Source of the DNA: Acephala macrosclerotiorum
Lineage: Eukaryota > Ascomycota > Leotiomycetes > Helotiales > Mollisiaceae
Assembly: GCA_014904845.1 (NCBI GenBank)
Contig: MU119358.1
Location: 62,001-126,000 of the forward strand
DNA length: 64,000 bases
Direction: 5' to 3'
Part shown: positions 14,937 through 64,000 of the stretch, piece after piece
Layout: each line of letters opens with the position of its first letter
Numbering within the stretch: the stretch's first letter is position 1
The notes under the pieces: generated by a model
Told to the model about the DNA's origin: nothing
The model's database searches: none
What the model saw: only the letters and a program-made list of their open reading frames with translations
Made by a program: the position numbers and the translations under genes

Positions 14937-15214
14937 TTTACAGTGGGAATGAGGTCTTGGGCGCAAGCTCCAATGAAAAGTGGTTGCAGATGGAAAGTTA
15001 GAAGAACTGCGCGAATATTGGGGGGCTCCTGGTTATTGCTTTCCTTGCTTATGATGTTTACGGCTTGTCGGAACATAGAGTCAAAAGGATAGATCTCTAT
15101 AAGAATATTATTTTTGTTTTCATTAGATCATATTATACATCGAGCAATATCTCCCTCCCATCTGCCCTTGATGCTCTCCGAACGCAGTCTTCTGACACAA
15201 ATTGGTTATCATTA

Positions 15215-15340
15215 TCCCTTCGTCCGCTGAGACATGTTCCAACGCTAAGCAAGGGAGATTCGCTTAACTAGCGCTCATAATTTTATGTACCTTTACATAC
15301 AAATTTATGCGTTAAAGTACCTCAACTGAATGAAATCGCG
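15215..15340 (+). repeat. Left terminal inverted repeat of the piggyBac-like element
   Basis: Begins TCCCTTCGTCCGCTGAGACA and ends AATGAAATCGCG. It matches the reverse complement of 17154-17279 at all but a handful of positions. It contains TTAACTAGCGCTC at 15264, where TTAA is the canonical piggyBac target site. Confidence 0.92.
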
Positions 15341-17153
15341 CCCAGTAGTCTCCCACCTTACATAAATTAACATTACAAAACCCACAACCACTATATAAGC
15401 GCGTCGCTCTACTTTCTACAGGTCTCCCAAGGACCTTTTTGCACTTTTGGTTATATAAATACTAAGTACAAGTGCCTCTAGAACGCTTCTCCCAGTAGTG
15501 AAGACGTTCGTTTTCAGGGTTAAATACCTTCTTGCTTTCTAATCCTACCTTTAAACTCTATAACTTAGCCTTTTCCGAATATTCTAAGAGTTTACAATAA
15601 AGCTCGATCCTGAACTGCAATTGCGTTAGAGATTTTTTATCTATATAGAGCTTGTAAAATCGATAATCGTTCACGCAAGTAAGGTCGATTAATTAGTAAA
15701 ACAACGGCCACCAATTTTTAAAACTAAACTTGTGGATTTCATACGCTTCTTTAAACTGATTTACCAAGTCTACACTTCTTATATTCTGATTATAATCGTC
15801 GATAAAACAAGGAATTGGAAACTCCTTAACAAAATTGTTCCCAAAAACCCCTCGTATAAAAGCTCCATTTGTTGACGTCTTTGTAAAACGCTTTCTCTTT
15901 TTTTTTACTCAATTTTCCACTTTATTTACAATATAGATATTACTTAATTTAAGAACAATATTATTATTTTGTTAAGCGATACAGAGTATATTTTGTTCAA
16001 TTGTCGCAACAAGAGTATTCTAAAGAAGTTTTTTCGTAAATCGTTTTTTTATTGTCGATAGAGAATTAGAGAACGTTTTGTGCGGGCGCGTAGTTCTCAC
16101 AATATCAAATTTGCAAGTCTGTAACTCTACAAATAAAAGGACTGAGGTAAAGTAATTGTCTATATAAATAGCAATATACCGTCAAAAAAGCATTAAAGCT
16201 AGGGAGCGTACGAAAGAGTCGGTAGAAGTGAGGGATGGGTGTTTAATTAGAGCTTGCAACTTCTTTTTTTTTGAGCTCCATATCCACCCGTATATATATC
16301 CATGGTCTGCGATTCCGTAGACTTTGTATCTTTCTTTAATAAGTTTTTTAGACATTTTGTAAGTATGTGCGGACCTGTAAATAACTGCTTGTTAGTAAAG
16401 TAGCGAAGTAGCGGAGTAAAAAAAGAATAAATAAGAGATATATTTATCGATCGAAAAACCGCACTATAATTTCGTCAATATTTACTTTTGATGAAGGGAA
16501 GTAATACTTTCGATAGGAGGCTTAAATAGCTGAAGTAAAAGGTTCTAGTTTATACTACCAGATCTTGTTAGTAAAAAGCTGATAATTATTGCGTTCGTTA
16601 CTTTTAGGATTTGAAATATGGCAGTAACGCTTGATTTGTTCGAAGCGGCAGCGGGATATATGAACTGAAATCGTGTGTAAAAAGCTTTTATTAAAATCTG
16701 GATTCTAGTATAGCTCGATTTGAGACTCATAGTAGACATCCATATATAAAATAACGCCAATAAATACGTAATACTCCTCTAGCAACAAATCTTTTTATTC
16801 TCGTGTTTTTTTTTGTTGTACTTGAAATTTGTATATGTTAGCGTATCGATTGGTGTTTTTCGTGATCGTTTTGAAGAAATCGAGAATAAAAAACAGATTG
16901 AAATAGTCGAATGGGTGTGGATTCGAAGGAAAGGAAGGGGGTAGGAGCGGTTTCGAGTCTTGTAGAGACTCGATTTTAAATGGAGTATATAAAACTTTAT
17001 CGATAAAACTTAGTTTTTCAAGAATATCCTCTAGGACTTGTGATTTTCGCTTTGCACGCTGTAGTAATGGGCTTGAATTGCCGCTATAATTAGGGCTGGA
17101 ATAATCGCTAGAATCCTCTATTAGAACGCGCTTTTTTATGGAGAACGGGCAGA

Positions 17154-17279
17154 CGCGATTTCATTCAGTTGAAGTACCTTGACGCATAAATTTGTATGCA
17201 AAGGTACATAAAATTATGAGCGCTAGTTAAGCGAATCTCCCCTGCTTAGCGTTGGGACATGTCTCAGCGGACGAAGGGA
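17154..17279 (-). repeat. Right terminal inverted repeat of the piggyBac-like element
   Basis: Starts CGCGATTTCATTCAG and ends GGACGAAGGGA on the plus strand. It is the inverted partner of 15215-15340, and the mirrored internal TTAA is at 17227-17230. Confidence 0.92.
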
Positions 17280-17299
17280 TAGTCTCATATACCGCTATC

Positions 17300-62157: not shown

Positions 62158-63891
62158 GATTCAGCAATGGCTTGTATATTAGAAATGTTGGGGTGTACGA
62201 AGGTGTGAAAAGGTGACCCGTCTTGCTCTAATGCAAAGCTACGCACTGCAACCTGCTCAACATCGTCGTCTTCCATCTGCCATGGCCAGTCGACATAGTC
62301 ACCGAGCCGATCTCTCTCATCGCTAGGTGGGTACTGTAGACGCATGCGGACTTAGTAGGCTACATGGATAGCATTGTCAAGAAGCTGTTCGCGCACATTT
62401 CCCTTTGAGTGCTACTGACTCTGGATCTCGGTTTCTTGACGCATCATCACGTGTCGATTCAAATACGGACATTTGTTCACAGCTCTTTTGACGAGGTCTT
62501 AGTCCGGACTTTGGTCGCAGGGGCTTGAGCCTAGTTAAAAGTCGGCCCACACTCCCTCCCATCTCTCTCATTCAAACCCCTTTTTCATCAACCAAAACCC
62601 CATTTCTTAACCACTTTCTTTCATTCGGACTTCAATCAGTTTGCAATCAATAATGCGTTTCCTTCCATTACAAATTCGTGTATCTTGGAAATTGAGAGAG
62701 GAGAGAGGACAACTTCTCTCACAGATTTTCCCAACCCCTCAGTTGGAGGCCGAACGTTCCTTAACGTTCCTTAACTCGGGAGCTTGTTATTGGTTCGCTT
62801 GGATTTGGAGGTGTCTGATTTCTTGAGAGGAGGAAGGGGGAGAGGACGGGTTACTGGGATTCTGATTCGTTGATCTTGTTTTTCTCTTCTTAGTGCTTTA
62901 GCTTTCGTTGCCTCGACCATTCGTGAGGTTGGCTTTTGTTGTTGTATTGCTGTATTTCCTTAGTAGTTCTGGTGGTGGTGGGAGAGGAAAGGAGAGACGA
63001 AGACGTCATTGGGAGATAAGTTCAGGCATTGGAAAGAGGTCTAGCGAGTTGTGGTCGAACTTCAGGGCATAGCTCACTGAAGATTCAGTCATTTAGTCAC
63101 TGAGACACAGCACTTTTCCCCAAATTTTATAACCTCGTAAGTCCCCCTTCGCTATAATATAAGCCATCAAATACACAAAGAGACGATTCGAAGCTGTCAA
63201 GTTGACAAAAATGAACCAGTCTTGATCTCAATCCAACCCATTTTCGATTTCATCAAGCTGGCGAAGATTTCTGAAGGAAGCTGTGTTTTGCATTATTGAT
63301 ACAGATAATGAAGAACTTCCTTGTTCTCAATGTTCAGCCTGCTTTGAGTCCGCCCTTAGATTCATCAAAATAATAAACGATTTACAAGGGAAGCTGCACT
63401 GTTGCATATTCAAACCAATTTATATTCCTGGTAGCCTAGTAGAAAAATGAGGCTGTGCCGACCAGTATCCGGGCGTTTATATCACGGCCCCCATGTTGCA
63501 GCAACTGTTATTGCTCTCTTGGGATGGCATACGGAGATTGCGGCATAAAGTGATGCGACTACAGGGCCTCGTGCCCTGAAATGGTGTTCTCAGGGCAACG
63601 ATGTCGCCATAGAGCGCTGAAAAGAGTGCTGTAAGCGAATAAATTCCCTGTAAATCTAGGGTATTAACGCTTATCAGCCGAAAAGTTCTAAAGCAACCGT
63701 ATGGGGGGTAGTGTTTAAGATAAGGTGTAAATAGCGAGCGCTGATAGGCTCCCTAGGCCTGACAGACATTAGAACTACCTAAGATCTCCAAAGAGGCTTT
63801 CAGGGTTGACAGCCTGGAAATATAGCGTTCTTGAAGCTTCTTGGCGGTGAGATAGCGTGTCTTTAGCGTACTGAGTACCTAGAATACTCTA
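62158..63891. other. Intergenic region, no gene recognised
   Basis: About 1.7 kb with no supported gene. The 58-codon frame starting at 62653 has no conserved motif. 63500-63890 has repeat-like texture (CCCTGTAAATCTAGGG, several TATCAG motifs) and may be part of another decayed element, but I cannot assign it. Confidence 0.35.
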
Positions 63892-64000
63892 TCCCTTCGT
63901 CCGGTAAAACATATCTCAACGCTAAACAAAAGAGATTCGCTTAACTAGCGCTCATTATTTTATGTACTTTTACATACAAATTTATGCGTCAAAGTACTTC
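63892..64000 (+). repeat. Second copy of the piggyBac-like terminal repeat, truncated by the window edge
   Basis: Starts TCCCTTCGTCC directly after CTCTA and follows the left terminal repeat at 15215 base for base, with mainly G-to-A/C-to-T differences. It includes ATTCGCTTAACTAGCGCTCA and TACATACAAATTTATGCG. Preceded by TA as at the other copy, so another element probably continues to the right. Confidence 0.9.

Follow-up and report, generated by a model that had tools for sequence, protein, structure and literature searches.

A piggyBac-type transposon lineage in the fungus Acephala macrosclerotiorum inserts at TATA-type sites instead of TTAA

Which target does a piggyBac-type transposon use when TA, and not TTAA, borders its ends? 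The question is raised by an element at positions 15215-17279 of a 64,000-nucleotide stretch of the Acephala macrosclerotiorum genome (contig MU119358.1, positions 62,001 to 126,000; hereafter the window), which has a TA at either border. The TTAA rule is normally part of the definition of piggyBac. We show that the lineage of this element inserts at TATA-type sites, not TTAA, and leaves TA-TCCC...GGGA-TA with no TA gained (hyphens mark junctions). The sequence-only reading of the locus had described two 126-bp inverted repeats with a TA flank, and both arms were found, its coordinates matching the element proper:

15215-17279, transposase on the minus strand: whole element, TCCC...GGGA, 2,065 bp
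15216-17278: element limits under a model of AT duplication, CCC...GGG
15213-15215, plus strand: left remnant of the target, T-AT (TA plus the T that precedes CCC), the triplet common to 102 of 104 ends
17279-17281, plus strand: right target remnant, AT-A
15215-15340, plus strand: left terminal inverted repeat, 126 bp
17154-17279, minus strand: right terminal inverted repeat, 126 bp; the two repeats are 95% complementary

With the flanking TA counted, the arms (15213-15340 and 17154-17281) measure 128 nt each and enclose a spacer of 1,813 nt. A scan of the genome (69.66 Mb in 778 contigs) recovered the same unit as seven further full-length copies (L002-L008; 76-90% identity), plus many more diverged or cut copies. 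Because this unit recurs, the window element is not a chance arrangement.

By its transposase, the window element is of the piggyBac kind. A Pfam profile search with stops read through matched PF13843 (DDE_Tnp_1_7) twice on the minus strand (16444-16914, E 2.2e-13; 15669-16355, E 4.6e-12), and tblastn with an intact homologue, P0001, was colinear along the window from 17076 down to 15318. The reading frame is full-length yet dead, with 11 in-frame stops and no frameshifts in its exons, and all three catalytic aspartates are kept despite the stops:

16448-17082, minus strand: exon 1 of the transposase, with 4 in-frame stops and an approximate start (tblastn match to P0001 at 17076-16363, intron included)
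16375-16447, minus strand: predicted intron, 73 bp, compared with the 47-bp intron of sister copy L017
15312-16374, minus strand: transposase exon 2, 7 in-frame stops, the last frame terminating at 15312
16474-16476, minus strand: first catalytic Asp codon (piggyBac D268)
16158-16160, minus strand: second catalytic Asp codon (piggyBac D346)
15768-15770, minus strand: third catalytic Asp codon (piggyBac D447)

The Asp codons were placed by tblastn with P0001 and by aligning a sister copy to the piggyBac structure 6x67, and the end of exon 1 was taken from the spliced sister copy L017 together with the window sequence. The predicted intron has a branch-like CTAAC and a CAG acceptor, and its donor has apparently changed from GT to AT. 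Among 39 aligned homologues, the D447 position is Asp in 39 and the D268 position in all 36 that have a residue there. The C-terminal cysteine-rich domain is present in the homologues, with Cys/His columns C533, C536, C561, C564, C569, C574 and H579 invariant or at least 90% conserved; in the window copy some of these residues are gone through stops and substitutions. The overall piggyBac fold was found through the fold of a homologue. The earlier claims of a dead piggyBac-type transposon, and of a minus-strand transposase with three acidic blocks, are therefore upheld by the profile matches, the Asp codons at all three places, the colinearity with an intact homologue and the match to piggyBac and piggyBat structures (by sequence, and by fold for the homologue).

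We then read the flanks of the occupied sites. TA lies on both sides of all 20 copies that have both flanks (L014 is cut by a contig end). A pattern of the outer 20 bases, with at most one mismatch, identified 107 ends genome-wide and none when the pattern was reversed. TAT stands directly ahead of CCC at 102 of the 104 distinct ends that were read, preceded by C in 54, and TTAA was found at none. If the end is set after AT, the window copy begins CCCT, which fits the form CC[C/T]T.

Several copies sit in repeats, and element-free paralogs of these repeats stand in for the pre-insertion site. For each paralog, three junction models were scored: nothing gained, one TA gained, or both gained. 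At the site of L002, the copy most closely related to the window element, 13 of 13 paralogs fit no gain and 11 read TATA. The same was true of the sites of L138, a short element, and L141, where 20 of 20 paralogs each fit no gain and 17 in each case read TATA. Single paralogs, all fitting no gain, represent the sites of L018 (TATG at the junction), of L033 from another family (TATA) and of a second copy at the window edge (TATA; left flank from the window, right flank from L020 on another contig). Pooled over these six sites, no gain was best for 56/56 paralogs, and 47 of the 56 were exactly TATA. The L024 site is weakly comparable with its paralogs. The copies L138, L008 and L019 occupy one and the same position in a repeat other than that at L002. 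The TA flank is thus not a simple TA duplication, and the suggestion that long repeats and a TA flank mark a distinct fungal subgroup was borne out and sharpened, the empty sites being TATA-type with no TA gained. Neither a TTAA target nor its 4-bp duplication was found; because the TTAA rule was tested here and does not hold, we class the element as a variant that targets TATA rather than as an ordinary piggyBac.

How might such junctions arise? We favor, with a probability of roughly 0.8, a target of TATA (preferred CTATAG) whose central AT is duplicated, with ends starting CCC as in piggyBac. The transposase would cut adjoining CCC, as piggyBac does, and would join the ends across a stagger of 2 bp where piggyBac has 4 bp, converting T(AT)A to T-AT-CCC...GGG-AT-A, a 2-bp AT duplication. 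Excision via 2-nt ends would give back TATA scar-free, and the 126-bp repeats may carry several transposase binding sites. The same product, identical at every junction, is given by blunt insertion in the middle of TA-TA, with ends that start TCCC and no target duplication at all. DDE/D transposases join with a stagger. The hallmark of piggyBac ends is CC[C/T]T (PMC2872659, PMC10175614), which begins one base further in than a blunt end would. Because of this hallmark and the staggered joining, we prefer AT duplication and regard blunt insertion as unlikely.

A plain TA duplication, as in Tc1/mariner elements and as reported for the Tuber indicum element Ti_tr1 (PMC3864998), would account for the TA on both sides of each two-ended copy. 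It is, however, beaten by no gain for every paralog at the six sites above, and the two sites that lend it support, L023 (one TA best for 4 of 12 paralogs, with 2 for no gain and 6 for both) and L008 (18 of 20, with 0 and 2), are ambiguous and carry indels beside the junction; the repeat at L023 varies in length there, and the left flank of L008 has 8 extra bases adjoining the end. We consider this explanation very unlikely. The transposase would also suit a TTAA-targeting piggyBac transposon of the ordinary kind with decayed flanks, but decay is unable to turn TTAA into a TAT shared by 102 of 104 ends, and the end counts refute this explanation, leaving it practically no chance. The sequence-only reading had further offered a composite element, which would be a piggyBac-type gene caught between the repeats of another transposon type. 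The repeats do far exceed the 12-19 bp usual for piggyBac (PMC10175614). The layout, however, is identical in all eight full copies, which each form one unit of about 2 kb and carry a single transposase; the last transposase codons lie inside the left repeat; and ends and flanks of this kind recur in four further piggyBac-type families, whose repeats are unrelated. A composite is therefore scarcely credible.

Several points weigh against AT duplication at TATA. Besides L023 and L008, where few or none of the paralogs fit no gain, two of the 104 ends deviate (L130 right, GGGG-TTTT; L133 right, GGG-ATGA), many related ends start CCCCT, off CC[C/T]T, and L032 starts CTC. The flanks of the window copy are single-copy, so that its own empty site was not seen in the genome, and the same holds for L013b and L140. 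Repeat paralogs are not the true pre-insertion allele, and the sites of L002 and the second window copy share the right half of one repeat, making them not fully independent. Blunt insertion predicts the same product, and according to the structure paper a 4-bp offset is obligatory for the piggyBac dimer (PMC7351741).

We next asked which residues near the target DNA differ from those of piggyBac. Three omega-loop residues of piggyBac, R275, Y283 and K290, contact TTAA DNA, with Y283 stacked against its last A (PMC7351741). All 36 of the 39 aligned homologues that have a residue at the Y283 position carry Lys (3 gaps), and at the R275 position 28 have Phe, 4 His, 3 Tyr and 1 Glu (3 gaps); Y439 is kept in 39/39 and N440 in 38/39. 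Tyr is likewise absent from the Y283 position at 10 of 10 loci of other families, with Lys in L031, L032 and L033 and Val in L029, L030, L039, L041, L042, L044 and L048. Loss of Y283 may be linked to the TATA target, though the link is suggestive only; residue differences of this kind are correlates, not proof. At the position of D450, the fourth conserved Asp, 33 of the 39 homologues have Asn, 5 have Asp and 1 has Gln; Asn also occupies it in the window copy (VDLVNQ) and, among the 88 homologues listed in which the motif was found, in 79. The piggyBac mutant D450N showed strongly reduced excision from one plasmid (PMC2533014). A general link between the change of D450 to Asn and the TATA target was rejected, as L032 keeps Asp (GVDRHDQ) and has TAT at both ends.

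Beyond its own genome, the element was compared through proteins only. Trichoplusia ni piggyBac (IFP2; 6x67/6x68) shares the DDD core, the fold, the C-terminal cysteine-rich domain and the CCC ends, but differs in its TTAA target with 4-bp duplication, its short repeats, Y283 and D450. The nearest solved sequence is piggyBat from Myotis lucifugus (9c0f; E 3.8e-14), to which the cysteine block also aligns; unlike the homologues, it keeps Arg and Tyr at the R275 and Y283 positions. PiggyBat targets TTAA. Fungal Tc1/mariner elements also have TA adjoining their ends, but belong to another transposase family, and no Tc1/mariner-type transposase was found in a Pfam scan of the L017 read-through, which gave PF13843 alone up to E 1. 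PiggyMac of Paramecium, a piggyBac-derived enzyme, cuts at TA, with one TA left behind, but is a domesticated excisase without insertion, likened here by description (PMC8086355). The account closest to ours is that of Ti_tr1 at the Tuber indicum MAT locus (2013), also in an ascomycete, with an insertion size of 2,351 bp, long repeats (52 bp, against 126), an intron-split DDE_Tnp_1_7 transposase of 566 aa, and TA without TTAA at its ends as described; it was presented as a TA duplication and its classification was called unclear, and the comparison is by description (PMC3864998). It seems to us fairly probable that an ascomycete branch of piggyBac, Ti_tr1 included, has left TTAA for the palindrome TATA, with a 2-bp stagger and loss of the TTAA-reading Tyr. 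A literature search, outside subscription papers and Repbase, found no piggyBac-type element with a TATA target.

If this is true, the branch is a naturally re-targeted piggyBac. Genome engineers use piggyBac as a standard tool, and structural work attributes its TTAA rule to dimer geometry and a small number of contacts; a branch found in nature that retains the enzyme core while targeting TATA would test that explanation directly, and offers the omega loop and D450 for study. It would also settle the classing of fungal elements such as Ti_tr1 and correct the way duplications are read, since T-AT-A resembles a TA duplication when the empty site is missing.

The window copy has decayed. In its interior, TpA/ApT is 1.20 and (CpA+TpG)/(ApC+GpT) is 0.78, compared with 0.65 and 1.30 in the rest of the window, and GC is 34% vs. 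49%. These ratios and the GC content agree with the C-to-T-type change proposed earlier, but a strict CpA context does not hold: at C/T-variable columns of the interior alignment of eight copies, the next base was most often T (157), followed by A (110), G (44) and C (29). Across the eight full copies (L001-L008), interior GC ranged from 11% to 37% and that of the left repeats from 36% to 45%, and 75% of ungapped columns were variable in the interior vs. 25% in the repeats. This change, which resembles repeat-induced point mutation (RIP), weakens toward the element ends among copies that were found by similarity, so that those with ruined ends may have escaped. RIP-like C-to-T/G-to-A change probably inactivated the window copy, hitting the interior harder than the ends.

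Relatives of the element occur in several forms. The other piggyBac-type families with different ends and TA on both sides number four (L030/L039, L033, L044 and L032); L029, L031, L041, L042 and L048 are loci without resolved ends. The 126-bp repeats belong to the window element's own subgroup; aligned repeats of the sister families with TA...TA flanks span 37-44 bp. Family L032 contains long open frames of 399 and 346 codons in an element of about 2.64 kb, with ends TAT-CTCACG. Some end pairs lie just 112-163 or 430 bp apart and represent short non-autonomous forms; these palindromic elements (L125-L139) hold hardly more than both family ends. Two further features lie near the window's right edge:

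63529-63860, minus strand: a further repeat, vacant paralog of the L018 site at 90%, TATG at the junction
63892-64000, minus strand: start of the second copy, which leaves the window edge (C157:125892 onward)

The second copy is broken up by DNA of 6-19% GC (L064, L111, L020), and its other half probably lies at the start of contig C369 (L020). The L133 right end, GGG-ATG, agrees with what would be expected of a TATG target. The pair L143/L144 (G000:C2:307380-312049), 4.7 kb apart, may be a larger or nested element, and its right-end flank is identical to an L141 flank over 59 bp. Finally, a high-copy repeat (L079-L110) with GGGGGAGACCCCCTGGGACCCCC-type palindromes is a recurrent landing site.
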